From Ureibacillus sinduriensis BLB-1 = JCM 15800 (lineage in GTDB: Bacteria > Bacillota > Bacilli > Bacillales_A > Planococcaceae): a stretch of 64,000 nt of DNA. The notes beneath the pieces are model-generated. The model saw only the letters and a list, made by a program, of their open reading frames with translations, did no database searches and had not been told where the DNA came from. Below are positions 1-22,436 of this stretch, piece after piece. Location of the stretch: the NCBI RefSeq assembly GCF_000772955.1, contig NZ_JPVO01000045.1, positions 62,001 to 126,000 of the forward strand, written 5' to 3'. The first letter of the stretch is position 1; each line of letters starts with the position of its first letter. A program made the translations under genes and the position numbers.

Positions 1-1146
1 ACCGTCCCATACGCCATCAAAATTCAATGCTTGTCCAATCGGAACAATGCGGTCTAGACCCCTGGTGGATATAGAATCTACAAGTACTTGTAACGTTGAG
101 TGTTCAAATCCAAAGTATGCCAATGTTTGATCTTTATCTATAATCACCTTTGATAGATCACTTAAATGCTCAACATCATACTCGAAAAATAAGCCTCCAC
201 CACAGTGACGTTCGCGTGCTTCTATCGGTACATCCACAACATGTACTCGAGAGAAATACTTTCCGTTTTCAATGTCTCTAACATCAGTTTCTGTTGACAA
301 CCATAGACTTGTTGTATATTTCAAAACTTGTGTAGCAGCCATTAATTCATATCGTTTATTTTTGACCTTATTTTCAAATGCCGACCAGAAACGTACTTTC
401 GCCTTTTCATGTTGCTTTCCACACCAAGCAATAAGTCTTGGTGAAGAGCATGCCATTTGATCAAACCAAAAAACATCATTATAAAACTTATCAAGCAATT
501 CATTTAACTCATTTTCACCGAGGTTTAAAACAGCTTCCGCCGAAATGGCAGCTAATGAAAAGCGGTCGGGAAATGCCAGTTCATTTGCCATAGGATTTAA
601 CTGGATTTGACGAATTGTTTGAACTGTATCATTACCACCCCAGATAACACGTGTATGGCAAATTTCACTAATCATTTCACCAAACTTTTCATCATAATTA
701 TATGTACATATTATCGTCTGTTTTGCGATTTTTTCAAACTCTGGTTTTGCGAGTTCAGTTAAAATTAAATCTAATAGTACATTCGAGTGCCCTTTGCCGG
801 AAACACGGATAATGTTTCTATTCCCAGCTAGCAATGATAACATCCAAGAATATACAAAGATTGTATCTACATTAGAGGGTGCAATATGGAAAACGGTTCC
901 ACGAGGTTTTATGAATCTCTCTTTATTTTGTTCTTCCCATTTAACCTTCATTTCCTGGATATTTGCCTTTCTCAACCAGTAGCCTAACGCAACCACTTCA
1001 GGCATTTGACGCATTCTAACAAGCGTTTTTGATAATGCTTGCGTGAATAGAAGAACTTCTTTATCAAAAGGGGTAAAAGTGCTATTCATATTTATCTCTT
1101 CAATTGCCTGCTCAAAACCCATTTCGATTGGCCAGAAAAGTTTCAT
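1..1146 (-). CDS. LuxC-family acyl-CoA/acyl-protein reductase (3' end outside window)
   Basis: Reads open for 382 codons from ATG at 1146 to the window edge, so the C-terminus is missing. LuxC enzymes reduce an activated acyl group to an aldehyde with NADPH, using an acyl-cysteine intermediate. The family motif VFHIAPSNVDTIF is near residues 85-97, and the expected nucleophile is Cys233 in QMACSSPR. The tail RIVPIGQALNF near residue 366 also fits LuxC. The start has a strong ribosome site (AAGGAGGTG) and its ATGA overlaps the stop of the LuxE-like gene, which implies translational coupling. No luciferase genes (luxA, luxB) are present. With LuxE, an acyl ligase and a carrier protein alongside, I infer it makes or transfers an acyl or aldehyde group for the glycan island rather than light. 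The family assignment is firm; the substrate is unknown. Confidence 0.85.
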   Translation of the reverse strand, partial: MKLFWPIEMGFEQAIEEINMNSTFTPFDKEVLLFTQALSKTLVRMRQMPEVVALGYWLRKANIQEMKVKWEEQNKERFIKPRGTVFHIAPSNVDTIFVYSWMLSLLAGNRNIIRVSGKGHSNVLLDLILTELAKPEFEKIAKQTIICTYNYDEKFGEMISEICHTRVIWGGNDTVQTIRQIQLNPMANELAFPDRFSLAAISAEAVLNLGENELNELLDKFYNDVFWFDQMACSSPRLIAWCGKQHEKAKVRFWSAFENKVKNKRYELMAATQVLKYTTSLWLSTETDVRDIENGKYFSRVHVVDVPIEARERHCGGGLFFEYDVEHLSDLSKVIIDKDQTLAYFGFEHSTLQVLVDSISTRGLDRIVPIGQALNFDGVWDG

Positions 1147-2204
1147 GCCCTTGCACCTCCTTGAAACGTGTCACTGCATCCGCGAAGTTCCGCTTTCGGA
1201 ATACGCCCGGCAACCGTAAAGTACTTCCCTTTCCATCCACACGGGCAATCATCTTCCCCGATTATCGTTCCAAGATCTTCAGTTAGAAGTGAGTGCCCGG
1301 GATAGCTTTTCGGTAGTTCACTAAGTACCTGTATTAACCCTTGCCGCCCATGTGAAAGGGGTTCAAAAGTCAAGGTATCACGAATAATCACATCTGCAAA
1401 CTGAGGTGTATGTAGATGCCCTTTTGAACACTCGACAAAAATGGAGCCAACCTGTTCCACCATTCCATAGTAGTTATGCACTTCACGAATACCAAGTTGA
1501 TCATGGAGAAGTTGATTGAATACGGACGAATCAACAGCTTCATCCTTTAATTTTTTCCAGCCACCGCCGTGAATTAAAATACTATCTCCAAAATCAAGCT
1601 TAATTCCTTGCTTAATAGACTCTTTAAAAACGTATTGCCAAATCATAAAGGTAAATCCAAACAAAAGAATACGTTCACCTTTATACTCTTCCAAATAGGT
1701 TTTCAATCCTTCAACATCTAAACTCATATCATCATTTAGTGCGTAAAAGTGCTTGCGACCGAAATTTGAAAAACCCAAAATCCCCGCTCCCCTTGCACTA
1801 AAGGATTTTCTATCTTTCAATATCGATTTTGTATCCAAAATAATCATCGGAAGGCGTTTAGCACCTAGCAGGGGCTTCATAACCTCGACGAGTGTTCTAG
1901 TCTGGGCAATCGATGTCTCTTTATCTAAATAAATTTTTGAAACCTGTTGCCCCGTTGTACCACTTGAAGTTAAAACTTTTATGACTTCTTCTTTTGGAAC
2001 AGAGACTAAATCCAATAATTTGAATAATTGAACAGGTAAAAATGGAACTTCCTCTAAAGAATTGGCAGTGATTTGAAAGCCACCTTTTTCAATCATCGAA
2101 CGATACTCTGTACTTTGTGACACATGAAACTTGGTTAATACATTTAATTTTTCAAGCAATAAAGGAGTTTTTTCGGCTTTTGTTAAGTGATAAGGATTTG
2201 TCAT
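1143..2204 (-). CDS. LuxE-family acyl-protein synthetase
   Basis: LuxE proteins activate a fatty acid with ATP and hand the acyl group to LuxC. The adenylate-forming motif SSGTTGQQVSK lies near residue 82, and a cysteine-rich C-terminal segment (DDCPCGWKGKYF, then RGCSD) is where LuxE carries its acyl-accepting cysteine. About 353 residues is normal for the family. Two in-frame ATGs exist. I prefer the one at 2204 because AAAGGAG lies 8 bases before it, whereas it is only 2 bases before the ATG at 2210. With this start the gene overlaps the ligase stop as ATGA and likewise overlaps luxC downstream. Together the two genes form an acyl-reductase pair without luciferase. Confidence 0.82.
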   Translation of the reverse strand: MTNPYHLTKAEKTPLLLEKLNVLTKFHVSQSTEYRSMIEKGGFQITANSLEEVPFLPVQLFKLLDLVSVPKEEVIKVLTSSGTTGQQVSKIYLDKETSIAQTRTLVEVMKPLLGAKRLPMIILDTKSILKDRKSFSARGAGILGFSNFGRKHFYALNDDMSLDVEGLKTYLEEYKGERILLFGFTFMIWQYVFKESIKQGIKLDFGDSILIHGGGWKKLKDEAVDSSVFNQLLHDQLGIREVHNYYGMVEQVGSIFVECSKGHLHTPQFADVIIRDTLTFEPLSHGRQGLIQVLSELPKSYPGHSLLTEDLGTIIGEDDCPCGWKGKYFTVAGRIPKAELRGCSDTFQGGARA

Positions 2205-3550
2205 AAACATTGCTCCTTTAATGTAACGTAATCAATCTTCCCGTTAGCAAAACGCGGGATCAAATCAATAACTATAACTTTATACGCAGATTTATGCAGT
2301 TTATAGTATTGTTCGACAGAAGTCTGTACATTAGTTATATGTTGATCGTTTTCTATAGCAATCACTAATTTATCATCATTACCGGTACATGCTACAGAAG
2401 CTTGAACTTCCGACTCCAATTTTTTCTCAACCTCATCTAAATTAATCCGTAAACCAAATAATTTAATGATTCTTTTCATTCGGCCAGTAATAATAAAATA
2501 ATTATCCTGATCTATTGTTGCTGTATCACCAGTATGAAGTATTCCGTTCAATTCATCGCCTTTTTCCAAGTCCTCCAAACATCTTGCATACCCCATCATG
2601 ACGTTTGACCCCTTATAAATTAACTCACCAGTCTCGGGGTCTACAGACAACTCTCCACCAGGTATTGCGATTCCTATAGTACCAGCCTTTTCCAATACTC
2701 TATCTGATGGGATATACGATATCCGCGGGGATGCTTCCGTTTGACCATACATAACGAAAAATTTCTTATCTTGTTCTTTAGCATATTGTGCAAAAACTTT
2801 CACTAGCTTTTCGTTTAATCGACCACCAGCTTGTGTTAATGTTTTTAAATGCGGCAAATCCATTTTCAAAAAACCTAGTCGGTGCAACATTTGATAAGTA
2901 AATGGGACACCAGCCAATGAAGTTGCTTGCTGTTCCTGTACAAATTGCCAAAATGTTTTAGACATGACACTTTCTTCAGTTAAAAGGATACTAGCTTTTG
3001 CCTGCAAGTGACTATTTATAATTGAAAGACCGTATGAATAAGACATTGGTAAATTCATAATGGCTCTTTCATTTCCATCAATGTTTAAATATTCTACGAT
3101 TGCTTCAGCATTCGATTGTATATTTTCATAAGATAATCGTACAAATTTCTGGCTTCCTGTTGTTCCGGAAGTACTAAGCAATATTGCTAAATCTTTATGA
3201 ATGGCAATATTCGAAGCACTAACTCTTTCTTGAATTAAACCTTCTTGTCGATAACCATCAAATAAATCTGTTCCAATAATCCAATAAGGCTTATATTCAT
3301 TCACAATCGAGTTAAGGAGCTCTGCATTTGTATCTGCACTCATTAGCATTACCGCATGATGATTATTTAAAGCTGAAAGATAGGCACTTAACGTTTCAAT
3401 AGTATTCTTACAAAGTAATAACACTAACTTTTTATCATCATTCAAGAAATTGAATTGTAGTCCCATTTCATTTAACTCTCTATATGTATATTGTTTTCCC
3501 TCAGTAATAACTGCAGTTTTATCTGATACTGCAATATTATGAAAACTCAT
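2201..3550 (-). CDS. AMP-dependent acyl ligase (acyl-ACP ligase type)
   Basis: A 449-residue adenylate-forming enzyme of the acyl-CoA synthetase superfamily. The P-loop-like motif STSGTTGSQKFVRLS is near residue 127, the A5 motif YGQTEASPR near 269, the GDTATID and GRMKRIIKLFGLR hinge motifs near 345-370, and a C-terminal catalytic lysine in RFANGKID. It is shorter than ordinary fatty acyl-CoA synthetases and resembles stand-alone ligases that load a carrier protein. An acyl carrier protein gene lies 53 bases upstream, so loading that carrier is the obvious role. The acid it activates cannot be read from the sequence. Confidence 0.85.
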   Translation of the reverse strand: MSFHNIAVSDKTAVITEGKQYTYRELNEMGLQFNFLNDDKKLVLLLCKNTIETLSAYLSALNNHHAVMLMSADTNAELLNSIVNEYKPYWIIGTDLFDGYRQEGLIQERVSASNIAIHKDLAILLSTSGTTGSQKFVRLSYENIQSNAEAIVEYLNIDGNERAIMNLPMSYSYGLSIINSHLQAKASILLTEESVMSKTFWQFVQEQQATSLAGVPFTYQMLHRLGFLKMDLPHLKTLTQAGGRLNEKLVKVFAQYAKEQDKKFFVMYGQTEASPRISYIPSDRVLEKAGTIGIAIPGGELSVDPETGELIYKGSNVMMGYARCLEDLEKGDELNGILHTGDTATIDQDNYFIITGRMKRIIKLFGLRINLDEVEKKLESEVQASVACTGNDDKLVIAIENDQHITNVQTSVEQYYKLHKSAYKVIVIDLIPRFANGKIDYVTLKEQCL

Positions 3551-3603
3551 CTAATTACACCTCTCAATGGAAAAAGGTATGGTATAAATACCACACCCTT
3601 TCA

Positions 3604-3840
3604 TTAAAATTGAACATCATATTTTGCTAAAATTTCTTTCGCTTTAGCAAATGAACTCATCTCTAAAACATCTTCTGTATCCAACATTGTATCAAATTGA
3701 TCGTCAATCTCGGAAATCAATGCCATATGTGCGATTGAATCCCACTCAGGAATTGAATTATATGTCAAATTTTCTGTTATCTTTGCTTCTTCAATTCCTA
3801 GGCTTTCCGCAAAAATTGTACGTAATTTTTGTTCATTCAT
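3604..3840 (-). CDS. Acyl carrier protein (dedicated paralogue)
   Basis: A 78-residue acidic helical protein with the phosphopantetheine attachment motif DSIAH (Ser35). The length and charge fit the acyl carrier protein family. It sits between an acyl ligase and a GNAT acetyltransferase, inside a glycan island rather than a fatty-acid operon, so it is probably a dedicated carrier that holds the acyl group used by the LuxC/LuxE pair or by a transferase. The ribosome site is modest (GTAGGG). Confidence 0.88.
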   Translation of the reverse strand: MNEQKLRTIFAESLGIEEAKITENLTYNSIPEWDSIAHMALISEIDDQFDTMLDTEDVLEMSSFAKAKEILAKYDVQF

Positions 3841-3905: not shown

Positions 3906-4445
3906 TTATAAAAGAAACTCTTCTCTATGCTTATGAAATTTCTTGCATTCATTTTCCCATGTCGAAGAGAGCAATTCAAAATATTCTACATTATAGAACT
4001 TCCCATTTTTTAAAATATGTTCTTTAAACGTTGCAGCATGTGTAAAACCATAGTGCAAATGCATTTTCATCATACCATCATTGCCTTCCATTACTTCTGC
4101 ATATAGTTTATTTAATTGAAGGTCTTTAAACACATAATTGTACAAATAGGGTTGAATACGGCCTGCAATGATAGAATAGCTCATATCCCCAATATAATAA
4201 CCAAATGTAGCTTTACGATGAAGTCGGTCAATTTGATTTAAAGAGATTAACCCAATCGATTTTCCTTTATACTGAATGATCCAATAATATTGGGTATCAT
4301 CTTTTGATATTTTCTCAAACCATTTTTTCTGACGGTCCGGATTCTTTTCGATATCTGTATACATAAATTGTGTAACATGTTCGCTGGTGCGCCATTCCAA
4401 TACTTGTTCTAAATGGGATTCATCAAGTTTTTTAAACGTAATCAT
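3906..4445 (-). CDS. GNAT N-acetyltransferase, PseH-like
   Basis: A GNAT-fold acyltransferase of about 179 residues. Its layout (EWRTSEHVTQFM near the N-terminus, GLISLNQIDRLHRKATFGYYIGD in the core, then the helix with NKLYAEVMEGN) resembles PseH, which N-acetylates the 4-amino sugar in pseudaminic acid synthesis. The start was moved to the ATG at 4445, preceded by AAGGGGG; the longer frame would begin with TTG. Because a carrier protein and an acyl ligase are adjacent, the donor could be acyl-ACP instead of acetyl-CoA. The other pseudaminic genes except a PseB homologue are absent from the window, so the sugar substrate is uncertain. Confidence 0.75.
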   Translation of the reverse strand: MITFKKLDESHLEQVLEWRTSEHVTQFMYTDIEKNPDRQKKWFEKISKDDTQYYWIIQYKGKSIGLISLNQIDRLHRKATFGYYIGDMSYSIIAGRIQPYLYNYVFKDLQLNKLYAEVMEGNDGMMKMHLHYGFTHAATFKEHILKNGKFYNVEYFELLSSTWENECKKFHKHREEFLL

Positions 4446-4480
4446 TTCCTTTTCCCCCTTCAAGTAAGAAAGGCATGGTT

Positions 4481-5227
4481 TTAGATAACCATGCCTCCAT
4501 CTACACCTATAACTTGTCCGGTAACATATGACGATAAATCGGAAGCCAAAAACAAAATTGTATTTGCTACTTCTTCTGCTTTACCAATTCGGCCCATTTT
4601 AATCTCTGATAAACGTTGAGCAAACTTTTCCTCTGAAAGCTGCTTTGTCATATCTGTTTCAATAAATCCTGGAGCAACCGCATTCACACGAATATTGTAA
4701 GGAGCCAGCTCCTTAGCAGCTGAGTACGTTGCACCAATTACTGCTGCTTTACTTGCACCATACACGGTTTGCCCAGCATTGCCTGTTCGTCCGATGATTG
4801 AACTGACATTAACTATTGAGCCGAATTTTTGCTTCATCATTAAACGGGAAGCATATTGCATATGATAAATAACTGCTTCTATGTTAATGGCTATCGTATT
4901 TGACACTTGTTTTTGATTAATCATTCCGAGCAGAGCATCATCTAATACACCAGCGTTATTTACTAGAACATCGAGGTGTCCTATGTTTTTTTTGATCCAT
5001 ACAAAAGCATTCTTAATTGAATTATTATCTGTAACATCATAAATTAAAGTATGTACATCTACATCGTAAGAAGATACCAATTCTTGCTTTACTTCATTTA
5101 ATCGTTCTTCTTCTCGTCCATTAATTATTACAGTCCACCCTTGTTTGGCCGCTTGAATAGCAGTTGCATATCCAATACCACGGGTTGCACCGGTGATAAA
5201 AATCGACTTATTACTCACTATTCTCAC
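4481..5227 (-). CDS. Short-chain dehydrogenase/reductase, FabG-like
   Basis: A classical SDR of 248 residues: cofactor motif TGATRGIG near residue 13, NNAG near residue 90, catalytic serine followed by YGASK near residue 157, and the C-terminal SYVTGQVIGVDGG typical of 3-oxoacyl-ACP reductases. Next to an acyl carrier protein and an acyl ligase it may reduce a 3-oxoacyl-ACP to a 3-hydroxyacyl form, which is inference. The GTG start at 5227 overlaps the upstream stop as GTGA. A second GTG three codons later is possible; neither has a strong ribosome site. Confidence 0.83.
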   Translation of the reverse strand: MRIVSNKSIFITGATRGIGYATAIQAAKQGWTVIINGREEERLNEVKQELVSSYDVDVHTLIYDVTDNNSIKNAFVWIKKNIGHLDVLVNNAGVLDDALLGMINQKQVSNTIAINIEAVIYHMQYASRLMMKQKFGSIVNVSSIIGRTGNAGQTVYGASKAAVIGATYSAAKELAPYNIRVNAVAPGFIETDMTKQLSEEKFAQRLSEIKMGRIGKAEEVANTILFLASDLSSYVTGQVIGVDGGMVI

Positions 5228-6099
5228 TTACTTTCATAAATTGATTCTATCGTACAGCTATATAAAGGTTCTCTGAAGGAAATGGTGTTATTGGCGAAAC
5301 TTGTATTTTTTTTAACTACATGCCAATCTCCATATGTGTAATCTAAATAGCCTTTATAATCCTTCGGTACTCTTATTTGAGTTCCTTCAAAAGGTAATTC
5401 ATCATAGCCTTCAAAAAACTTTGCTGGAGTATCATTTAACTCTTGCTTGACCATATCTTCTATTTTATACATACAATCAAAGTTTACCATAAATAACTTT
5501 CGACCATTCTCTATACAATCAATTGTTATTGATGCTGGTTTGCCATTTGAATATATTCGTAAAAATACTTGAAGATCAAATAATTTTTCGAGATTTTGAA
5601 TCGAATCCAATAGCACTTCCTGTACTTTCTGTATATCAGAACCAAAAATGGCGATATCAATGTCATCATCCCATGGAATTAGTCTACCATCTCTGGCAAT
5701 TCCTAATAATGTGCCAAAAGTATAGAAATGTGGAATTCTGTTAAGCGACTTCGATATCTCGGTGATTAACTGATTGGTCTTTTCTAGGGTTGCCGGGTTT
5801 TCAAATGGCAATTCATCAACCTTCATGGAATTTTTGGAAGCAAATTCTATTCTTTGTTCTGGGATTCCCAATTCAGCTAACTGCTTCGAAATCGAATCTA
5901 CATACATGCTGGTAACAATGATTTTGTCAAAGTTATAATTATGAATAGAATCAGGACTAATTATTTTTATATTACTCAGTAATTTTCCGTGTTTTTGTTC
6001 ATCGTTATCTATGATGGCTAAAAATTTATAATCATTTATATGGTTTTTAATAAAATTATGTCCACCTAAACTTGCTCCAAATAATAAAATATTATCCAT
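5224..6099 (-). CDS. LicD-family phosphotransferase with N-terminal Rossmann-like domain
   Basis: A two-part protein of about 291 residues. Residues 1-90 form a Rossmann-like module (ILLFGASLGG, IDNDEQKHGK). The rest is a LicD-family domain with the signature FGTLLGIARDGRLIPWDDDIDI; its acidic cluster is the metal site of these nucleotidyltransferase-fold enzymes. LicD proteins add phosphocholine or related phospho-groups to glycans. The neighbours TagD and a TagF-like transferase point to a polyol phosphate as the group handled here. The start was set at ATG 6099 because the longer frame begins with TTG. Confidence 0.78.
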   Translation of the reverse strand: MDNILLFGASLGGHNFIKNHINDYKFLAIIDNDEQKHGKLLSNIKIISPDSIHNYNFDKIIVTSMYVDSISKQLAELGIPEQRIEFASKNSMKVDELPFENPATLEKTNQLITEISKSLNRIPHFYTFGTLLGIARDGRLIPWDDDIDIAIFGSDIQKVQEVLLDSIQNLEKLFDLQVFLRIYSNGKPASITIDCIENGRKLFMVNFDCMYKIEDMVKQELNDTPAKFFEGYDELPFEGTQIRVPKDYKGYLDYTYGDWHVVKKNTSFANNTISFREPLYSCTIESIYESK

Positions 6100-6117
6100 A
6101 ATAATCAATCCCAACAA

Positions 6118-7536
6118 TTATTTAAATATAGATATAAAATCTTTTCCCTCTTGTAGACCGGATTTTGAACACAGTTCTCTAATAGCTTTTAACCCTTTGC
6201 CTGTAACTGTAATGATTATTCCTTTTTCAACAATTGGCTTTTCTATTTTATAATTCAGAAACTCCTTACCTTGTTTAAAAGTATCGGCATCCATCAATCG
6301 GTTGATTGCTATATTGTTTCCCTTCAACCATGAAACAATAATTTGACCGGATAGTCCTGCTCCCCATACACTCAAATCATTTTTATTATGATTTAAGAAA
6401 TTCTTAATAGCCTCTTCGTCAATAATATGGAACGATTCATCATTATCCCAATGTTTCTTCTCTTGACTCATTGCTAAATGAATTGCCTTTGCTGCTCTTT
6501 CATTCGCTAGGCTATCTTGATATGTGTAAAGCTCATTTAGCAATTCTAAATAAGGTATATCCATGTCAAGAGCAGTTATCAACGTAGGAAGCAATTCAGA
6601 TGGATCCTTTACATGTGGTAAAATATCTCTAATTTGAATATCAAGGCTTATATTTGTTACGTCTACATTGTTATATAACGAAATATTGGCCATTTTATCT
6701 AAGTTCACTGAACCTGTATCAAGAATATTCTCATCAATAATATCTAGTAGGACGATTGGTTTCTTAAATAACATAGCATCAAAAATAGCACCACTATAAT
6801 CACTTAATATGATATCGGCAAATTGCAAAAGATCAAATAAATTAGTAAATTCATCATATAAATAAAGAGTGTCTATATTTTTTAAAGCTTCCCATTTTTC
6901 ATTATTACCCGATAGTACATTACCATGGTGAAGTTTTACAATAACATTGAATTCTTTTGTTAACGAAACAACATTTTCTACGAAAATATCCAATGAAGAT
7001 AAATCTGCCCATGTTGGACAATAAACTAGGGTCTTGCGATCTGTTAGTTTTTCTATAGACAACTCATTGCCATTGATATCAATTACTGTTTTTAGATAAT
7101 TTCCTGTCAATCTTGGATGACCTATATCTGCAACTTCCGCAAAAGCAGTTAATCTTTTAGTAGCATATGGACCATAGCTTAAAACTAAATCAAACCCTTT
7201 ATTCCATTCTGCATAGTTCCATGAATCTTTAGCATAGCCATATAGCCCCCTGATTTTAATTAAATCCTTATCTAGCAATTGAAAACCAGGCATATAATAT
7301 GGCGCCAGTAAAGCATCAAATTCCACAGTCTTATCAAATAATTGTTCAAATCCACAGTAAGTTATATTATTTTGTTCAAATACTTCAATTAGGCGTTCTA
7401 CTCGTTCATTAATATGGTAAGGGGTATAAATAATATATTCAACTTGGTAGCCCATTTTTTCTAGTTCTTTAGCTATGCCAGAAAAATGCACATAGTGAAA
7501 TACTGTTGTACAAGTAAGCCCTATTCTTTTCTTCAT
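6118..7536 (-). CDS. CDP-glycerol glycerophosphotransferase family protein (TagB/TagF-like) with C-terminal Rossmann-like domain
   Basis: 472 residues. The central part has the conserved signatures of the family: VKLHHGN and then ILSDYSGAIFDAMLFKKP, which bind CDP-glycerol in TagF. In teichoic acid synthesis such enzymes move glycerol phosphate from CDP-glycerol to a lipid-linked acceptor. TagD, which makes CDP-glycerol, is the gene immediately upstream and overlaps by 4 bases. The last 90 residues are an extra Rossmann-like module (SVWGAGLSGQIIVSWL, LMDADTFKQGKEF) related in pattern to modules in two other proteins of this island. In this context I infer glycerol-phosphate decoration of a flagellar or surface glycan rather than wall teichoic acid. 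Confidence 0.78.
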   Translation of the reverse strand: MKKRIGLTCTTVFHYVHFSGIAKELEKMGYQVEYIIYTPYHINERVERLIEVFEQNNITYCGFEQLFDKTVEFDALLAPYYMPGFQLLDKDLIKIRGLYGYAKDSWNYAEWNKGFDLVLSYGPYATKRLTAFAEVADIGHPRLTGNYLKTVIDINGNELSIEKLTDRKTLVYCPTWADLSSLDIFVENVVSLTKEFNVIVKLHHGNVLSGNNEKWEALKNIDTLYLYDEFTNLFDLLQFADIILSDYSGAIFDAMLFKKPIVLLDIIDENILDTGSVNLDKMANISLYNNVDVTNISLDIQIRDILPHVKDPSELLPTLITALDMDIPYLELLNELYTYQDSLANERAAKAIHLAMSQEKKHWDNDESFHIIDEEAIKNFLNHNKNDLSVWGAGLSGQIIVSWLKGNNIAINRLMDADTFKQGKEFLNYKIEKPIVEKGIIITVTGKGLKAIRELCSKSGLQEGKDFISIFK

Positions 7537-7919
7537 ATCTTCAAATCATCCTTAATCATAGTTGTGGAGATATTACGTGTTCTTTCAAGATAAACAACTT
7601 CACAATACTCCTTCAAAAAATCAAAATGACCTTCCCAGTCATCGCCCATTACAAAGATATCTATTTCTTCTCTTAGGATATCAGTAATTTTTTGATCCCA
7701 AGAAGTCTCAGGGATTACTTTATCGACATACTTAATCGCTTCCAAAATATACTTTCGATGCTCGTAAGAATGGTATGATTCTTTATGCTTTAAATGATTG
7801 AATTCATCAGTTGAAAGTACCACTGTAAGATGATCCCCTAGTCCTTTGGCTCTTTCTAAGATCCTAATATGTCCCCAATGCAACAAGTCGAATGTACCAT
7901 ATGTAATAATTTTCTTCAT
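7533..7919 (-). CDS. tagD: Glycerol-3-phosphate cytidylyltransferase
   Basis: Makes CDP-glycerol from CTP and glycerol 3-phosphate. The 128-residue length matches TagD. The HxGH catalytic motif is HWGH near residue 15. The second signature, usually RTEGISTT, reads RTRNISTT, so a normally conserved glycine position is asparagine. The frame extends upstream, but the TagD N-terminus MKKIITYGTFD begins at 7919 behind AGGGTGA. It overlaps the TagF-like gene as ATGA, which supports a shared pathway. Confidence 0.9.
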   Translation of the reverse strand: MKKIITYGTFDLLHWGHIRILERAKGLGDHLTVVLSTDEFNHLKHKESYHSYEHRKYILEAIKYVDKVIPETSWDQKITDILREEIDIFVMGDDWEGHFDFLKEYCEVVYLERTRNISTTMIKDDLKI

Positions 7920-7929
7920 TTTTATCACC

Positions 7930-9807
7930 CTAGTTGCTTTTAATAATTTCAATATATTTTGAAGCACCTTTATGATTACCATTTGATTCAGTAATACACT
8001 CTTTAAAGTAATATTCTGACTCCTTTAAATTCCCTAAAAAAAACTGACTTAATCCCATATAATATAATGCAGATAAGAGATAATTTTTTTTAATTGTTAG
8101 TTCATCATTATTTTGATGATTATCTCTTGACTCATATAAATCTAAGTACTCTTTTAAATATTCTATACATCCATTAATATCTTTCAGTTCAAAGAAAGAC
8201 CTACCTGCGAAAAAAAAGTAATCCATTTTATTTATCGGAAATTTATCCTTAAAGTTCAGTATTAATTCGTATTCCTTTTTATTAAATAGAACATCTAAGA
8301 CATTAGAAAAATTATAGTGATTAAGTGTTGCTCCTCTTCTTAACAAATTAATAAATTGATTTAAGCTAATTATTCCTTGTTCTGTTGATTCAATTGTTTT
8401 GAGTTTTTGATACTCAGTATCAATTAAACTAATAATGTTGTCACTATAAACATCTTTTGTACTATTATTTTTGTATGTTCGTTGGATACTAAGAGAAGAA
8501 CTAATAATTTTTCTTAAATCATGCTTATCTTCTGCAAAAAATATATATTCATCTGGAATTCCTGAGTTTTTAATTATATTGCCTTTATAGTGAATAAAAA
8601 TAGTTGGAACTCCAAATTCATATGCTTCAAAAGCTGTTGATGAATAAGGGGTTATATTTACAAAAGTGTTACTAAAAAGTGAAAGTAAACTATTATTATT
8701 GGCTTCCTCAAAGGAAATATTATGAATGTTTGCTTCATTAACTTTTTTTATAAAGCTGTTTCTCTCTTCCTCTTCCATAATAGGATGAAATCTTATATAA
8801 AATTTATATATGTCTGCTGTTTCTTTAATAAATTCTAGAAACCAGTTAGGAATATTTCCATTCCATTCTGGAGTCGCTCTGATAGGTTGCAAAGTCACTA
8901 ATATATTTTCTTTATTATTAGTTTTGCTATTTGATAATTCGTATTCTCTATTCTTTTTATAGTTTTCTACCCAAAGATTTCCCGTCATTATAGCTTTATG
9001 TTTAACTGTCTTATTTGCCCATTGATTAATACTATTTGTAGTAAATTCATTCCATGTTAAATATATATTTGGGAAGATAGTGAATCCATTATTTCGATTC
9101 TTTAGATTCCATCCATACCATAGAGTATCTTTTAATATACCATGTTGCACCTCAATACTTGGGATGCCTACATTATGTGCAGCTAATGTTGCAGCTAAAC
9201 AAACTTTATGATAATAGATTTCAACAAATATTCTTTTGATTTTTTTTTGAACTAAAATCTTCTCAAAAACTTTTGAAAGAGCATAAATTTCTGAAGCCAA
9301 TTTATATATTTCATTCATAGATGGGAAATTAAGAATGCCTACATTCTCTTCAAAATATTCTTTTACATCTTCGTATTCCTCTAGTTGAATATAAGGTGCT
9401 AAATATAAATATTGAGCTATGTATTTTTTTTCATCTAAAAAGTATGAACTACTATTTCTAATAATCTTATCCGTTGGATATACTGAATATTGAATATTCA
9501 CATAAGATTCTTTGTTACTATTAATTAAGTTCATATATGGTCCTAATATTCGATTCTCTAAACCGTCTTCACCTTCTATAAGTCTAATTGGATCAAATAG
9601 AAAAAGATTATCATACTCATCACTATTAGAAATTAGATTGTCAATTGAGTTAAATTCTTTTGGATTGATTTTTGTGAAATTTCCCCCAACTATTTCCTTT
9701 TCTATTTGTTTACGAAATAAAGGCCATAGTTCAATACCAAAATACTTCCATTTTTTTACAACAAATAATTTTTCTATATTATTAAAAACTGATAATAGAT
9801 TATTCAT
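7930..9807 (-). CDS. Probable glycosyltransferase with TPR-like C-terminal repeats
   Basis: A 625-residue protein I cannot place in a named family with certainty. The first ~480 residues have a glycosyltransferase-B-like pattern also seen in capsule polysaccharide proteins: GIPSIEVQHGIL near residue 217 and VNITPYSSTAFEAYEFGVPTIFIHY near 385. The last ~120 residues contain TPR-like helical pairs (FFAGRSFFELKDINGCIEYL and ALYYMGLSQFFLGNLKESEY). The gene is visibly richer in A and T than its neighbours, with many AAT and AAA codons, which suggests separate acquisition. The ribosome site AAGGAGAA is good. A role in building or transferring the island's glycan is inference. Confidence 0.6.
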   Translation of the reverse strand: MNNLLSVFNNIEKLFVVKKWKYFGIELWPLFRKQIEKEIVGGNFTKINPKEFNSIDNLISNSDEYDNLFLFDPIRLIEGEDGLENRILGPYMNLINSNKESYVNIQYSVYPTDKIIRNSSSYFLDEKKYIAQYLYLAPYIQLEEYEDVKEYFEENVGILNFPSMNEIYKLASEIYALSKVFEKILVQKKIKRIFVEIYYHKVCLAATLAAHNVGIPSIEVQHGILKDTLWYGWNLKNRNNGFTIFPNIYLTWNEFTTNSINQWANKTVKHKAIMTGNLWVENYKKNREYELSNSKTNNKENILVTLQPIRATPEWNGNIPNWFLEFIKETADIYKFYIRFHPIMEEEERNSFIKKVNEANIHNISFEEANNNSLLSLFSNTFVNITPYSSTAFEAYEFGVPTIFIHYKGNIIKNSGIPDEYIFFAEDKHDLRKIISSSLSIQRTYKNNSTKDVYSDNIISLIDTEYQKLKTIESTEQGIISLNQFINLLRRGATLNHYNFSNVLDVLFNKKEYELILNFKDKFPINKMDYFFFAGRSFFELKDINGCIEYLKEYLDLYESRDNHQNNDELTIKKNYLLSALYYMGLSQFFLGNLKESEYYFKECITESNGNHKGASKYIEIIKSN

Positions 9808-9918: not shown

Positions 9919-10470
9919 TTATACCAATTTTTTGATTAACTTAGCTGGCACTCCAGCAACAACAGAAAAGTCCGGAACATCCTTAGTAACAACCGCACCT
10001 GCTGCAACAACAGAATTTTTACCAACTGTCACTCCAGGCAATATAATAGCATTTGCTCCTATCCAACTTCCCTCTTTGATTTTAATTGCTTTGGGTTCTT
10101 GATGCCCTTGGTAATATATAGGTATACTAGAATCTTTAAACTCGTGATTAGAAACATATAGGTGAACTCCTGATCCTAATAAGACATTATCCTCTATAGA
10201 TATTTCTACATCGAGATTACCTATTAGTACGGAGTTAGGTCTTATTACTACATTATCCCCAATATTTATATTAGAACAACATACAATTATAGCCCCAGGT
10301 CGTATTTCGGAATTTTCCCCCAAACTTTTCAATTTTTTTTTACAATATTGATTATAAAGATTTGGTGCATAAGATAATATTTGACTATAAATTATATCTG
10401 GTCCTATACGATCAGTTGATTTAGACCAATTCCACCTTTTAATAATTTCCCTAATAAAACTGATTACCAA
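9919..10470 (-). CDS. Hexapeptide-repeat (left-handed beta-helix) O-acetyltransferase
   Basis: A 183-residue acyltransferase with hexapeptide repeats. The core ends in [20 protein letters not shown] and the family C-terminus [14 protein letters not shown] catalytic histidine is likely in YVSNHEF. These enzymes usually O-acetylate sugars with acetyl-CoA. The only start upstream of the conserved part is TTG at 10470, which overlaps the stop of the SDR gene. The 111 bases after its stop, before the TPR gene, hold nothing clear. It probably acetylates a sugar of the island. Confidence 0.78.
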
Positions 10471-11282
10471 GCACTTAGTCCTCCATCAATTAAAATATTT
10501 TGTCCTGTTACATAACTTGATGCATCAGATGCTAAGTAGATTAAAGCCCCAACCATCTCTTCAGCTTTTGCCATTCTACCCATAGGAATACGATTACCAT
10601 ATCTCTCTTTGAAAGTGGCATTTTGTCCACTTTCAACTCCACCAGGGGTAATAGTATTTACTCGAATCCCATCTTTCGCCCAATAAGTAGCTAAATATTT
10701 TGTTAGAGCTACTACTCCTCCTTTAGAAGCAGAATAAATAGCGGGTGTATTAATTTCCCTATTCAGATAATAAGAGCCTTCGTAAATACGGTTATCAGGT
10801 CCCATCACGCCATAAATGGACGCGGTTTGAATAATTGATCCGCCTTTTCCTTGTTCTTTCATAATCTTACCAACATGTTTAGCCATTAAAAACATACTAT
10901 CAAGATTTGTAGACATTATTTCTTTCCATTGTTCTAAGCTGTATTCCTCAAATGGAGCAAAAAATGCTTCTAAATCACTTGATTTTCCAGCAGCATTATT
11001 ATGTAGAATATGTAACTCATTAAAAGTACTCTTTACTTGGTCAATCATCTCTATTACGGAATGCTCAGAGGTTAAATCGCAATAAAATGCTTTACTTAGC
11101 ACTCCATATTCATTATGAATATCTAAAGCAGTTTGTCTCGCTTGATCTATATTTATATCAACAATAGCAACATTAGCACCTGCATTTGCTAGACCTTTTG
11201 CAAAGTGGCTTCCTAATATTCCTGCACCACCAGTAATTATGGCATTTTTACCAATAAGTGAGAATTTTTCAAAGTAATTCAT
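10464..11282 (-). CDS. ptmA: Short-chain dehydrogenase, PtmA-like
   Basis: A 272-residue SDR with [16 protein letters not shown] at the N-terminus, NNAAG near residue 98, YSASKGG near 180, and [13 protein letters not shown] at the end. It lies directly after the CMP-legionaminate synthetase gene and overlaps it by 4 bases. PtmA holds the same position in Campylobacter flagellin glycosylation loci, where it has been proposed to help supply glucosamine phosphate for the GDP-sugar legionaminic route. The symbol rests on family and context; the exact reaction is not settled from sequence. Confidence 0.72.
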
Positions 11283-11989
11283 CCTAGTGTACCTCTCTTC
11301 TCTGCGAGTAATTTCACAATCTCAAAATCTAACTCTGAATCAATATCTTGTGATCTTTCCTCGGGCATTTCATACAATAACGTTTTATTTGTGAAGACAC
11401 TCTCACAATTAAAAAATTCATTTCTTCTCCATGCATATATAGAGGCATTCATATCATATGTTTTTGGAGCATCTTGACGTCTTATTATGGACTTGGTTGT
11501 TAATGATTTAGACAATTCAACATAACCATTTTCAAGTTTTTCCACCATATTAAAATATGGACTTCTTCTTGCTGGAGCTGCTGTTATTATATTAGTTGCC
11601 TCATGATGCAATTCTAGTAATTCGATACAGTTCTTAATATCACTAATATCTCTTAAAGGCGATGTTGCATCCAAATCTGTGATGATGTCAAATTTCAAAC
11701 CAGATAGTTTTTCAACTTCACTTACACAATGTTGCATTACTGGTATTTTAGCAGCTGTATCCGTTGCAAGCTCATTAGGCCGCTTTATCACGTAGTCTAC
11801 TCCATAAAATTTAGCAATTTTTAAAATTTCTTCACTATCGCTACTAACAGCTATAACATCGAATAAATTGCTGTTCTTAGCTTGTATAATACTATGAGCA
11901 ATTAATGGTATACCAAGTAACTCTCGAATATTTTTATTTTTCACGCCTTTTGAACCACCACGGGCACAGATCGTACAAATTCTATTCAT
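11279..11989 (-). CDS. legF: CMP-legionaminic acid synthetase (NeuA/PtmB family)
   Basis: Activates a nonulosonic acid with CTP to give the CMP-sugar used by the transferases. The 236-residue protein begins MNRICTICARGGSKGVKNKN, containing the CTP-binding ARGGSKGVK motif of CMP-sialate synthetases, followed by LDATSPLRDI and, near the end, RSQDIDSELDF. The frame runs further upstream, but the family N-terminus starts at ATG 11989, inside the end of the previous gene. It follows the LegB-to-PtmE genes, so legionaminic acid is the likely substrate. Confidence 0.86.
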   Translation of the reverse strand: MNRICTICARGGSKGVKNKNIRELLGIPLIAHSIIQAKNSNLFDVIAVSSDSEEILKIAKFYGVDYVIKRPNELATDTAAKIPVMQHCVSEVEKLSGLKFDIITDLDATSPLRDISDIKNCIELLELHHEATNIITAAPARRSPYFNMVEKLENGYVELSKSLTTKSIIRRQDAPKTYDMNASIYAWRRNEFFNCESVFTNKTLLYEMPEERSQDIDSELDFEIVKLLAEKRGTLG

Positions 11990-12887
11990 TAGTAACCCAC
12001 TCTTTTCTCTCCGCTGATAACTCAATAGCATCAATCATTTTTACAACTTCCAATCCTTCTTCGAAAGTACAAGCTTGCCCTTCATTATTTAATATCGACT
12101 TATGTTGTTCAATATAGGTATAATTCCTATGGATCTTTGGTAATATTATTATCTCGTTATTTATTTTAATTTCATTTGCTATAAAGTCAGCTCTAATTGT
12201 TTTAGTATTTGTTTGTATTATTAAATACCTCTGAGTTATACGATCCAAATAATTCAATTCTAATGATATTGGAATATTTAACTTAGATTTAAAAATAATT
12301 TGACAATAATCCTCAGATTCTATTTTCAAGTCACTTCTCTTACCCTTTTGAGCACACAATTCTACCCAATTTCCAAATAAATATATTAAATAATCTAATT
12401 CATGACTTAAATCTCTTATTACTCCACCACCTTCACTTACACTAGCAGAGTATGACTTGGAATAATCAGTTTCAGGTCTCCAAGTAGGTAAATATTGTCC
12501 TACATAACTATTTACATTAATTACTTGTTCATCTTTTATTAAAAGTTTTAATTCCTGAATCATTGGGTGAAATCTTAGATTATATCCAACATATGTAATT
12601 ACTTTGTTATTGATTGTCTCAAAATTTGAAACCAGAGGCTTTTCAGACATAACAATACCGTTATAATTCATTTCATTCAGTTTATCTATAATATTTTTAT
12701 GTAACTTTGTTTCATTGGCAATAATAATATAATCAAACTTTTCACACGATAGAGCAATTTCTAATGATATAAAACTATTTGGTAATTTTATATGCCTAGA
12801 TACAATAAACACTTTATACCCAAGATCCTGTAACACTTCAACATGTCTTTTACCTATAGAGCCGTATCCTATTACTAATACTTTCAT
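11982..12887 (-). CDS. ptmF: Gfo/Idh/MocA-family oxidoreductase, PtmF-like
   Basis: A 301-residue NAD(P)-dependent oxidoreductase with the Rossmann motif VLVIGYGSIGKRHV at the N-terminus, the EKP motif in MSEKPL, and the EGGGVIRDLSHELDYL segment with the usual catalytic-region histidine. It lies between PtmE and the CMP-sugar synthetase, the place of PtmF in Campylobacter-type legionaminic loci, where it is thought to act with PtmA in glucosamine phosphate supply. The gene is A+T-rich. The family is clear; the specific reaction is inferred from context. Confidence 0.72.
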   Translation of the reverse strand: MKVLVIGYGSIGKRHVEVLQDLGYKVFIVSRHIKLPNSFISLEIALSCEKFDYIIIANETKLHKNIIDKLNEMNYNGIVMSEKPLVSNFETINNKVITYVGYNLRFHPMIQELKLLIKDEQVINVNSYVGQYLPTWRPETDYSKSYSASVSEGGGVIRDLSHELDYLIYLFGNWVELCAQKGKRSDLKIESEDYCQIIFKSKLNIPISLELNYLDRITQRYLIIQTNTKTIRADFIANEIKINNEIIILPKIHRNYTYIEQHKSILNNEGQACTFEEGLEVVKMIDAIELSAERKEWVTNE

Positions 12888-12889
12888 AT

Positions 12890-13936
12890 TTAATAACCTC
12901 TAAAAATATTCTCATATTCTACATCAGCCTTCTCAAAATCATCTAGCTGTCCTATATCTAACCAATATTCTCTAATAGGAAAAACTGTTGCAGTTTTCTG
13001 CTCTTTGATTAACCGTTCAAATAGGGAAGGCATATCATAAAATTCGTCTTTTGGAATACAACTTAATGTTTCTGGATCTAGAACATAGATTCCAGCATTT
13101 ACATAACTTTTATTTACAGGTTTTTCTTGAATTTCTAAAAGATCTGAACCGATTGTTTTGATAACACCATAAGGAATTTGATATTGATATTCTCTTACAC
13201 ACATAGTGCCAAAAGATTGGTGTTCTTCGTGAAATTGCATTAATTGCTCAAAGTTTACTTGAGTTAGCAAATCACCATTCATTACAAATATAGGCTTTGT
13301 GGGTTTTTCCGGAAGCAATGATAGTGCACCCGCTGTTCCCATTCTTTTGGTTTCTTCTACATATGTAATAGATACACCAAAAGCCTCCCCATTTTGGAAA
13401 TAATTCTGTATTACTTCTTTTTTATAATTGACTGAAAAGATAAAATTCGTATAACCATATTGCTTAAATCCATCAACTATTGTTTCAAGAATTGGTTTTC
13501 CACCTACTCTTAACATGGGTTTAGGAATTTGGTCTGTCAAAGGACGCAATCGAGTGCCAAGACCCCCAACCATTAATATTACTAGATTTTCTTTTTCCTC
13601 TTTATAATCTTTAAATAGTATATCTTGTAAAATAAACTGTTCGTCTACAATTGGTAATTGTTTCAGTCCTTTTTTACGCATAAAGTTATAAAAGGAATTA
13701 CATGAATGATTTAGCTTTGCAACAATTGGATTACTGTTCATAACCTCTTTAATTGCTATTTGTAGTTCTTTTCCTTTTAATAAAGCACGTCTAATATCCC
13801 CGTCAGTTACTGTACCTAATAATTTCCCAGCCTCATTTGTAACCACAGCAAATTGCAATGAAGACTTATCAATAATTTCCATCACTTCAATTAGAGTCTT
13901 ATTCGGAGGAACTACAATGCTTCTCCAAGATTTCAT
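12890..13936 (-). CDS. ptmE: Sugar-1-phosphate guanylyltransferase with CBS pair, PtmE-like
   Basis: 348 residues in two parts. An N-terminal CBS pair (residues ~1-110, with TDGDIRRALLKG) is followed by a nucleotidyltransferase with VGGLGTRLRPLTDQIPKPML near residue 122 and a C-terminal YWLDIGQLDDFEKA. PtmE of Campylobacter has this architecture and makes GDP-glucosamine from glucosamine-1-phosphate, the first committed step of GDP-linked legionaminic acid synthesis. The stop/start junction with the upstream acetyltransferase is TAATG. The presence of this gene favours legionaminic acid over sialic acid as the end product. Confidence 0.82.
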   Translation of the reverse strand: MKSWRSIVVPPNKTLIEVMEIIDKSSLQFAVVTNEAGKLLGTVTDGDIRRALLKGKELQIAIKEVMNSNPIVAKLNHSCNSFYNFMRKKGLKQLPIVDEQFILQDILFKDYKEEKENLVILMVGGLGTRLRPLTDQIPKPMLRVGGKPILETIVDGFKQYGYTNFIFSVNYKKEVIQNYFQNGEAFGVSITYVEETKRMGTAGALSLLPEKPTKPIFVMNGDLLTQVNFEQLMQFHEEHQSFGTMCVREYQYQIPYGVIKTIGSDLLEIQEKPVNKSYVNAGIYVLDPETLSCIPKDEFYDMPSLFERLIKEQKTATVFPIREYWLDIGQLDDFEKADVEYENIFRGY

Positions 13937-14565
13937 TATTTCACTTCCTTTGCAGGTACACCGTAAGCCTTTTGATAGTCATTTAAACTTCCTAGTACAA
14001 CTGATCCCGCTCCAACTAAACAATAATCACCAATTTTAATCCCTTGTATGACAGTAGTTCCGGTACCAATATGTGAACCCTTACCAACATAAACACTTCC
14101 TGATAACATACATCCTGGAGCAATATGAACATGTTCACATATATAACAATCATGATCTACTAGTGCACTAGTATTAACAATCGTGTTGTCAGCAATGGAG
14201 ACATTACTCTGTAGGACAGTGCCCGCCATAATTTGAACACCCTCTCCTAGTTTTACAGACGGTGCAATTATAGTAGAAGGATGTACAACATTCGTAAATT
14301 TATATCCCTTGTTTTTAAAGAACGAAAAAATATTTGCCCGAATGTTACTAACATTAACAGTCCCTATCCCTAAAACTAGTTCAGTACTATTTGGTTCGAA
14401 ATTTAATATACACTGATCTAAACCTAAATACTTCAGTCCAAATTGATTTTCTTCTTCACTAAGAGCTGTAAATCCTAAAATCTCACGATTAGTTGCAATT
14501 AATATTTCTGTTAAAACAGAGGCATGTCCACCATTGCCAATTATTATTACTGGATTATTCGTCAA
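13936..14565 (-). CDS. NeuD/PglD-type sugar acetyltransferase (LegH candidate)
   Basis: A 209-residue protein with an N-terminal Rossmann-like sugar-binding part (PVIIIGNGGHASVLTEIL) and a left-handed beta-helix (VGKGSHIGTGTTVIQGIKIG) ending in the family tail AYGVPAKEVK. NeuD/PglD enzymes acetylate the 4-amino group of UDP- or GDP-linked bacillosamine-type sugars. LegH performs this step in the legionaminic pathway between LegC and LegG. The start overlaps LegI by 11 bases. Assignment to LegH is by position and pathway need. Confidence 0.8.
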   Translation of the reverse strand: MTNNPVIIIGNGGHASVLTEILIATNREILGFTALSEEENQFGLKYLGLDQCILNFEPNSTELVLGIGTVNVSNIRANIFSFFKNKGYKFTNVVHPSTIIAPSVKLGEGVQIMAGTVLQSNVSIADNTIVNTSALVDHDCYICEHVHIAPGCMLSGSVYVGKGSHIGTGTTVIQGIKIGDYCLVGAGSVVLGSLNDYQKAYGVPAKEVK

Positions 14566-15625
14566 TCAAATCATCCTCTGCATAATTCTTTTCTGCTTTT
14601 TTGCCAAGATATGTCCAATAATTCTCTGGTGAAATACCACTTCCCGGACGTTTAATTGTTAGATTAGCAGTTGTAAATTCATCTCCTTTTTTTATAACCA
14701 TTCCAGCCACTAAACTTTTTCTTGCTGGAATACGGTTTTGAATTTCAACATTTGTAGGTTTCTTAATGCCCGTACCCAAAGAAATTTCTACTTGACGAAT
14801 CTGCTGAACCATCCCCTTTAGTTCAATGGGGTCAAGGGAAGCAATATGATCTGGACCTTCTAACGACTTATCTAAAGTAAAGTGCTTTTCAATTAATACA
14901 GCTCCAAGTGCAACAGCTGCTGTCGGAACTGAGATACCTTGAGAATGATCAGACAATCCAACGTTCAAGCAAAATTCTTCTTTCAATTGTTGTATTACAT
15001 TTAGATTTACCGATTCATATGGTGCTGGATATTCCGTTGTACAGTGAAGAATTGTTACATATTTTTGTAATAAATTTTTGGCCTTTTTTGTATGATAAAA
15101 AGAATTTACATCTTCAATAGTTATGTCAACATTTTCTGCTAATCCATACGCTATAAATGAGAGCGCTTTATGAATTTCTTCAATTGTTGCCATTCCTGTA
15201 GAAAGAATAATATGTTTTTTCTTTTTCGCAATATAATAAATAAATGGTGCATTTGTTAATTCACCTGAAGAAATTTTTACTCTATCCATTTGTAATGTAT
15301 CAAGTAAAAAATCGACACTTACATAATCAAAAGGTGTCGATAAGAATTCTATTTTTTGTTCTTCACAATATTTTTTTATTTCAACGAACTCTTCAAAAGA
15401 TAATTCTAGATTTTTCAGCATTTCATATTGAGTAGTAACTTTTCCTAAGTTATCAACCTGATATGCCGCTTGAATCGCCGATTTAGTTACCAAATTTTCA
15501 GCTTTAAATGTTTGAAATTTTATTGCATCCGCTCCTGCATTTTTTGCTACTAATACAAGTTCTTTAGCCATTTCAAGTGATCCGTTATGATTCACACCTG
15601 CTTCTGCAATTATATATGAACTCAT
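14555..15625 (-). CDS. legI: N,N'-diacetyllegionaminic acid synthase (NeuB family)
   Basis: Condenses a 6-deoxy-diacetamido hexose with phosphoenolpyruvate to form the nine-carbon acid. The 356-residue protein has the NeuB barrel signatures EAGVNHNGSLEMAKELV, DAIKFQTFKAE, KISSGEL and LSDHSQGI, and a C-terminal SAF domain (ARKSLVAGMVIKKGDEF). It overlaps LegG by 4 bases. NeuB homologues act on several related sugars. The neighbouring LegB, LegC and LegG make legionaminic acid the best reading. Confidence 0.88.
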   Translation of the reverse strand: MSSYIIAEAGVNHNGSLEMAKELVLVAKNAGADAIKFQTFKAENLVTKSAIQAAYQVDNLGKVTTQYEMLKNLELSFEEFVEIKKYCEEQKIEFLSTPFDYVSVDFLLDTLQMDRVKISSGELTNAPFIYYIAKKKKHIILSTGMATIEEIHKALSFIAYGLAENVDITIEDVNSFYHTKKAKNLLQKYVTILHCTTEYPAPYESVNLNVIQQLKEEFCLNVGLSDHSQGISVPTAAVALGAVLIEKHFTLDKSLEGPDHIASLDPIELKGMVQQIRQVEISLGTGIKKPTNVEIQNRIPARKSLVAGMVIKKGDEFTTANLTIKRPGSGISPENYWTYLGKKAEKNYAEDDLIDE

Positions 15626-19840: not shown

Positions 19841-20806
<966 letters not shown>

Positions 20807-22089: not shown

Positions 22090-22436
22090 TAATTTTCAAT
22101 ACCTTCTACTTTGGTTACTTGCTCAAAAAAAGGAGCAATTTCATATTCAAACATATCTGCCACAATCACATAGTCCATTACTTCCAGTCCATTATTGATT
22201 TCTTGTAAAAATTCATTGATTGCTTGGACTTCTAAAATTACATTTACATTATTTTCATTTAGCAATTCACTTGCATGAATAAGCCATCCCATACCTTCAG
22301 AAAACTGAAGAATCATCCTCATTGACTCATCAATCTCATCTTTTCGTAGGTGCTCTGCAATTTGTAAGCATCCTGGAGAAATTTTCTCAATATAATTATT
22401 GTAACTTTCGATTACTTCCATTATAGTGTTGTTCAT
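22089..22436 (-). CDS. Small helical protein of unknown function between two maf genes
   Basis: 115 residues, acidic and mostly helical by appearance, with no signal peptide, membrane segment, cysteine pair or recognised motif. It overlaps the long maf gene by 4 bases at its start and the short one by 1 base at its stop, so it is translated within the same unit. A role as a partner or regulator of flagellin glycosylation or export is possible but unproven. Confidence 0.75.
   Translation of the reverse strand: MNNTIMEVIESYNNYIEKISPGCLQIAEHLRKDEIDESMRMILQFSEGMGWLIHASELLNENNVNVILEVQAINEFLQEINNGLEVMDYVIVADMFEYEIAPFFEQVTKVEGIEN

Follow-up and report, generated by a model that had tools for sequence, protein, structure and literature searches.

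A stretch of 64,000 nucleotides from Ureibacillus sinduriensis BLB-1 = JCM 15800 (contig NZ_JPVO01000045.1, positions 62,001 to 126,000 of the forward strand; hereafter the window) begins with a cassette of genes encoding a LuxC-type reductase, a LuxE-type synthetase, an AMP-dependent ligase and an acyl carrier protein (ACP), together with a PseH-type GNAT and a FabG-like short-chain dehydrogenase/reductase (SDR). This is a real, conserved and coherent acyl-group set, and it probably puts a small hydroxyacyl group on pseudaminic acid (Pse) through its dedicated ACP. The observations behind this reading are gene content, conserved active-site residues, synteny, a loop missing from the PseH-type protein and a mass match in another bacterial group.

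The tight array of LuxC, LuxE, ligase and carrier protein described in the initial annotation was confirmed by profile matches. On the minus strand, as are all the window genes described here, lie the genes for the LuxC-type acyl-protein reductase (1..1146; PF05893, 81.8 bits, profile positions 75-238), the LuxE-type acyl-protein synthetase (1143..2210; PF04443, 184.5 bits versus a cut-off of 24.9), the AMP-dependent acyl ligase (2201..3550; PF00501, 130.5 bits) and the ACP (3604..3840; PF00550, 23.9 bits versus a cut-off of 20.8). The luxC gene runs past the left end of the window and, as seen in the flank of the same contig, encodes 396 amino acids (aa) in full, with 45 bases outside position 1. 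The SDR and GNAT noted earlier as close by are directly upstream of the ACP gene, the GNAT being PseH-type (3906..4463, likely ATG start at 4445; TIGR03585, 118.9 versus an equivalog cut-off of 93.1) and the SDR FabG-like (4481..5227; PF13561, 221.8 bits; TIGR01830, 260 bits, under the cut-off of 297.75). We propose that this SDR serves the cassette as its aldehyde (or ketone) reductase. Overlaps of 4 bases between luxC and luxE and of 10 bases between luxE and the ligase gene, as well as gaps of 53 (ligase-ACP), 65 (ACP-GNAT) and 35 bases (GNAT-SDR), suggest one predicted transcription unit, SDR-GNAT-ACP-ligase-LuxE-LuxC. In two other loci (L293, L294), ligase and LuxE were fused (PF00501 plus PF04443).

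Active-site residues were retained almost throughout. Cys233 of LuxC (codon 448-450, checked) aligned to the DQQAC motif of Photobacterium phosphoreum LuxC (7xc6_A), a structure found by profile search, while a phmmer search of the PDB with the single LuxC sequence gave no match; this cysteine was kept in all 90 LuxC rows from cassette loci. Similarly, Cys345 of LuxE (codon 1176-1178), whose alignment to LuxE 7xc6_E retains the GCS motif, was kept in 92 of 92 LuxE rows; both counts refer to rows passing a length and score filter, and each includes four repeat strains. By likeness to the Photobacterium enzymes, we take both cysteines to have an acyl-transfer role. In alignment column counts, the catalytic Lys438 of the ligase (codon 2237-2239) was kept in 92 of 93 rows, and W33, D34, the phosphopantetheine-bearing Ser35 (S35; codon 3736-3738), H38 and M39 of the ACP were invariant in all 91 rows.

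The PseH-type GNAT of the window lacks the coenzyme-A diphosphate loop (G-x-G/A), the corresponding stretch being 4173-4196. This loop was found in none of the 56 cassette-linked PseH-type GNATs (0/19 in Bacillales, 0/21 in other proteobacteria and 0/16 in Aeromonas), nor in the four linked to a second module of ACP, ligase and SDR without LuxC/LuxE, in contrast to the conventional PseH-type GNATs of Bacillales, all 22 of which have it. The count leaves out four repeat strains (L086, L100, L109, L115), a distant GNAT found in L047 and the loci in which no open reading frame (ORF) was labelled PseH or the match was at or below 25 bits, i.e., 12 of 37 non-cassette Bacillales loci, 2 of the 34 Pse loci in the cross-phylum set of 80 described below and 3 of 15 non-cassette Aeromonas loci. 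The VIA-align list included no GNAT known to use acyl-ACP, which is not evidence against one, and no proposal that PseH transfers an ACP-bound hydroxyacyl group was found in the open-licence literature searched. The PseH-type GNAT probably acts at the last step of the cassette pathway.

A mass published for another bacterial group fits such a product. In Aeromonas strain AH-3, which belongs to group II according to the gene content given in the paper, the polar flagellin glycan is described as linked via a 376.14 Da Pse derivative and as containing a 102 Da moiety of unknown nature (PMC7874193, PMC4284686). The computed mass of Pse with one acetyl replaced by C4H6O3 is 376.1482 Da, and that of C4H6O3 itself is 102.0317 Da; the same formula (376.148 Da) is also given by other acyl pairs. 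The group on Pse is most likely dihydroxybutanoyl (deoxytetronyl, C4H6O3).

From these data we infer the substrate, the order of steps, the product and the ACP as donor. Because two carboxylate-activating enzymes are present, the substrate would be a small dicarboxylic acid of malate or succinate size, and the presence of two adenylating enzymes would be explained if both carboxyls of this one molecule have to be activated. LuxE would activate one carboxyl, forming a thioester on Cys345, and LuxC would receive the acyl group on Cys233 and reduce it to the semialdehyde, which the FabG-like SDR would turn into an alcohol. The AMP ligase would then activate the remaining carboxyl and load the hydroxy-acid on the ACP, from which, rather than from coenzyme A, the PseH-type GNAT would take the acyl group in order to acylate the 4-amino sugar nucleotide from which Pse is made. 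Afterwards, Maf-like proteins would attach the modified Pse to flagellin. The earlier idea of carrier loading of an acid followed by its reduction or transfer agrees with this scheme; an aldehyde as the final group is less likely and would rather be an intermediate, since a reductase (the SDR here, an iron-containing alcohol dehydrogenase in the RfbKLMN-like layout discussed below) belongs to the set.

The cassette is not a luminescence system. No luxA or luxB, whose absence had already been noted, was present in the ORF sets of the fetched flank and of window positions 1-40000, and the flank past position 1 held the end of luxC, pse genes, flaG and fliD. Luciferase-like genes were found in none of the 97 cassette loci, four of which are repeats (phmmer, five queries), while the same queries matched three of three lux operons, recognised by gene order, if weakly (18-37 bits). 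The six PF00296 matches of the strain's own genome were all on other contigs, and the five that bear names (an alkanesulfonate monooxygenase, one NtaA/DmoA-like and three MsnO8-family proteins) are neither LuxA nor LuxB. Neither NCBIfam equivalog was reached: the score was 28.8 versus a cut-off of 750 for LuxC (partial gene) and 90.2 versus 550 for LuxE. In a quick tree computed from 108 LuxE sequences, from which five rows longer than 470 aa were left out and for which the tool warns of long branches, 94 cassette LuxE formed one clade (SH-aLRT 99) that joined the RfbN-type LuxE-LuxC fusion (SH-aLRT 93), apart from three luminous LuxE, which were recognised as such by gene order. Given the absence of luxAB and the separation of cassette LuxE from luminous LuxE, luminescence was rejected.

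Among 261 genomes of the order, PF04443 was matched at E <= 0.001 in 49 and at E <= 1e-50 in 17. All 17 strong-match genomes were among the 54 with PseI above cut-off (Fisher p 2e-13, kinship ignored), a co-occurrence that exceeds chance in this sample; the remaining 37 thus have pse genes and no cassette. At each of the 17 strong LuxE loci (our own and L040-L055), ACP, SDR, ligase, LuxE, LuxC, PseH, PseF-like, PseG and PseI genes stood together, counting as bearing the genes L050, with its ligase in two ORFs, and L055, with an insertion between ACP and ligase. PseC was present in 16 of the 17, there being none inside the stretch fetched for L041. Eight weaker PF04443 matches that were examined (L056-L063) lay in other gene settings, and, by the genome search, two LuxE-like matches in another setting (L030, L033) each had one in-frame TGA.

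Beyond the order, PseI was above cut-off in 31 of 37 Aeromonas genomes, and the cassette was present in 16 of those 31 loci and absent from 15. PF04443 was matched at E <= 1e-10 in 50 of 394 genomes of the order sample around Aeromonas, luminous LuxE included. A species-genome scan gave a cross-phylum set, the best 80 of at least 568 relatives, which comprises alpha-, beta- and gamma-proteobacteria, Bacillota, Bacteroidota, Synergistaceae, Treponema and others; plasmid records extend the range to Ponticoccus, Deinococcus and Rhizobium. The cassette occurs in glycan loci of many phyla. Within this set, LuxC, ligase and ACP accompanied LuxE in 62 of the 66 loci of at least 15 kb, an SDR or a transketolase pair was present in 59 of those 66, and PseI was found in 34 of the 80.

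In Bacillales, the position before PseF is occupied in four ways: by a PseH-type GNAT alone; by PseH with ACP, ligase and SDR (L205, L208, L209, L213; the ACP was seen directly in L205 and L209); by the LuxEC cassette; and by an ATP-grasp protein with a HAD protein and no labelled PseH (L206, L207, L216, L217, L219; Pfam on L206 only), a variant that perhaps leads to an amino-acid-type acyl group. A weak formyltransferase-like match (31-43 bits) was seen at the expected place of PseH in five non-cassette pse loci (L189, L193, L200, L203, L220). In 3 of the 17 Bacillales cassette loci (L040, L043, L044), a split transketolase and another SDR were added, the N and C halves lying with the SDR inside or beside the LuxEC cassette (L040, 12620-15192). 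A split transketolase scoring above 100 bits was also present in 13 of the 80 cross-phylum loci, one of which repeats L043. This transketolase may extend the LuxC aldehyde.

Four other explanations of the cassette were weighed. That the set attaches a fatty acyl or otherwise lipid-derived group would accord with the action of LuxC and LuxE of luminous bacteria on long-chain acids, and such a liposugar has been inferred, on the strength of gene names, for both Aeromonas and Enterobacteriaceae (PMC7874193, PMC4875605). The lipid-derived group entertained in the initial annotation is nevertheless unlikely. Pse bearing acetyl and octanoyl has a computed mass of 400.22 Da, and the published 376.14 Da linking sugar of AH-3 is too small for a C8-or-longer acyl group; FabF-like genes were found in none of the 97 cassette loci (phmmer, one query) and FabH-like genes in four (two queries, L151 and L153). 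Since condensing enzymes are nearly absent beside the cassettes and the AH-3 sugar is too small, and with both luminescence equivalog models missed by far, we regard a fatty-acid liposugar as very unlikely on grounds of mass and gene content. Hardly more probable is that another part of the glycan, i.e., legionaminic acid or a glycerol-phosphate side chain, is the target instead of Pse. Legionaminic-type, LicD, glycerophosphotransferase and TagD genes do adjoin the cassette, and two loci (L287, L288) carry an RfbKLMN-like set in a legionaminic-type cluster, but pse genes and a PseH-type GNAT abut the cassette at all 17 Bacillales loci, while the other neighbours vary.

The two remaining explanations concern the product. 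The SDR could reduce an acetoacetyl-type ACP to 3-hydroxybutyryl-ACP for PseH, with LuxC and LuxE serving a separate step. The four loci with PseH, ligase and SDR but no LuxC/LuxE in the same slot point in this direction, as do the hydroxybutanoyl amides known on flagellin and other glycans (PMC3958885; 5ktc); this contrasts with the co-occurrence at 62 of the 66 long loci of the cross-phylum set, which indicates that LuxC/LuxE are not an optional extra, and with the mass of Pse bearing hydroxybutyryl and acetyl (360.15 Da, not 376.14 Da), so that we consider this explanation improbable. We likewise think it rather unlikely that the product is the LuxC aldehyde as such, or a longer, polyhydroxylated group formed when that aldehyde is coupled to another unit, for example by the transketolase. 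The split transketolases of the Bacillales and cross-phylum loci would fit such a route, and so would, if strain MR-1 bears LuxC/LuxE, the flagellin of Shewanella oneidensis, which has a nitrogen-free C9H16O7 unit (by subtraction from the formulas of Table 4 in PMC3765264) beside mono-acetyl Pse, and whose sfm genes include a thiamine pyrophosphate enzyme and a FabG-like reductase (PMC3765264); yet the window cassette has no transketolase. The C9H16O7 formula is that computed for the 236 Da outer unit of the S. oneidensis flagellin, and a hexahydroxynonanoyl amide would also give it (PMC3765264, Table 4).

As for the surroundings, the flagellar glycan setting suggested earlier was borne out and could be specified as a pseudaminic-acid operon. 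Past position 1 follow, in order, a PseF-like cytidylyltransferase, PseG, PseI, a DUF4910/DUF2172 protein, a formyltransferase, PseC and then FlaG and FliD. The cytidylyltransferase next to LuxC stands in place of PseF and matched PF02348, while no PseF model matched it; PseC (507.2 bits), PseG (270.9 bits) and PseI (489 bits) were each above cut-off. The adjacent DUF4910/DUF2172 and formyltransferase genes (7044-9208 of the fetched flank, L003, minus strand) recur as a pair in several Bacillales loci, both with and without the cassette. On the other side of the cassette, a LicD-domain protein (5224..6117; PF04991, 50.1 bits) overlaps the SDR gene by 4 bases and is followed by a CDP-glycerol glycerophosphotransferase-like protein (6118..7536; PF04464, 38.8 bits), the glycerol-3-phosphate cytidylyltransferase TagD (7533..7982; TIGR01518, 193.2 bits versus a cut-off of 165.4) and a set of genes at 10464..18922, taken from the ORF lists, which are putatively of the legionaminic-acid type. 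A 4,6-dehydratase gene (19841..20806; PF02719, 358.4 bits) is presumably of the PseB type, to judge from its place. There follow a Maf-like protein (20914..22089; PF01973, 113.3 bits; Maf N-terminal PF20157, 22.0, under the cut-off of 23.5), which we propose to be a flagellin glycosyltransferase, a second Maf-like protein (22433..24130; PF01973, 129.3 bits) and the flagellin Hag (24236..25156; NF009446, 394.4 bits versus a cut-off of 352). With pse genes, flaG and fliD on one side and Maf and flagellin genes on the other, the cassette sits within the pseudaminic-acid operon of the flagellar region. Adjoining the ordinary flagellin gene, a flagellinolysin, i.e., a flagellin with a zinc-protease insert (HExxH), was found at 25307-26731 on the minus strand (NF033876, 211.6 versus a cut-off of 205). 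Rfam gave no match on window positions 1-30000.

A wider view, which we put forward tentatively as possible rather than probable, is that LuxC and LuxE did not evolve for light alone and are central to a reductive hydroxyacyl pathway, widely distributed, that serves ACP-dependent acyltransferases of bacterial surface amino sugars. In this pathway a dedicated ACP would have replaced coenzyme A as the donor for PseH, and a transketolase branch would extend the aldehyde to give polyhydroxyacyl chains. On this view, the slot before pseF would hold an N-acyl module open to exchange (coenzyme-A-dependent PseH; ACP-ligase-SDR-PseH; ACP-ligase-LuxEC-SDR-PseH; ATP-grasp-HAD) that sets the chemistry of the flagellin surface. 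Two published gene surveys guess at a lipid, and a concrete non-lipid pathway fitting both the 376 and the 102 Da values makes a vague annotation testable. Should an ACP be the acyl donor of PseH, pseudaminic acid synthesis would have a switched version of its acetyl-CoA step, and the proposed pathway would suggest a role for many LuxC/LuxE homologues outside luminous bacteria.

In comparison with known systems, the cassette shares with the fatty-acid reductase of luminescence homologous LuxC and LuxE and both catalytic cysteines; it differs in having no luxAB, a LuxE clade of its own and equivalog scores far under cut-off. The window GNAT has the fold and family model of the PseH acetyltransferase (4ri1, 4xpk) but not its coenzyme-A diphosphate loop. 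The initial annotation had suggested that the system could be uncharacterised, which is not wholly so, the gene set having already been published in flagellar islands of Aeromonas (PMC7874193) and Enterobacteriaceae (PMC4875605). The Aeromonas parallel drawn there proved apt: the group II islands are reported to hold the same five gene types, i.e., ACP, FabG-like SDR, AMP synthetase, luxE and luxC, with pseBC and pseFGHI (PMC7874193), and the Aeromonas loci that we examined carry homologues of the window set. The fgi-1 glycosyltransferase gene lies downstream of luxC in that island, in contrast to the PseF-like cytidylyltransferase gene (PF02348) here, and the window adds legionaminic and glycerol-phosphate genes. 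The flagellin islands of Enterobacteriaceae share Acp, LuxE, LuxC, CaiC and FabG; as far as the cited portions go, their authors infer the liposugar with no mass data (PMC4875605).

The cassette also resembles the tetronate genes of Vibrio cholerae O1, for which a pathway was proposed in 1995 (as cited in PMC12208996). VC0248-0252 (rfb/wbe KLMNO) are assigned to tetronate synthesis, with WbeL (VC0249) of 471 aa (PMC3441752), and are listed as RfbL (VC0249), an iron alcohol dehydrogenase (VC0250), the "acyl protein synthase/acyl-CoA reductase RfbN" (VC0251) and an acetyltransferase (VC0252) (PMC9201469). Compared by published gene lists, not by alignment, the two systems share a carrier protein, ligase, reductase, LuxE/LuxC activities, an acetyltransferase and an amino sugar target (PMC9201469, PMC12208996, PMC3441752), whereas in V. 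cholerae LuxE and LuxC are fused and the sugar is the perosamine of lipopolysaccharide. The same fusion occurs in L287 and L288, where an ACP, a 473-aa ligase, a 374-aa iron-containing alcohol dehydrogenase and an 825-aa LuxE-LuxC fusion stand in this order in a legionaminic-type cluster (Pfam on L287), a layout equal to that printed for the V. cholerae genes (PMC9201469, PMC3441752, PMC12208996). After or close to the fusion, both loci encode proteins of about 330-355 aa that no Pfam model matches, candidates for the acyltransferase of this set. The window set has the ACP, AMP ligase, LuxE and LuxC of the tetronate-type (RfbKLMNO) system, and a FabG-like SDR instead of the iron-containing alcohol dehydrogenase; it may therefore work like RfbKLMNO and is not classed as a member. 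Either an SDR or an iron-containing alcohol dehydrogenase may thus serve as the reductase of such a set, which supports reduction to an alcohol.

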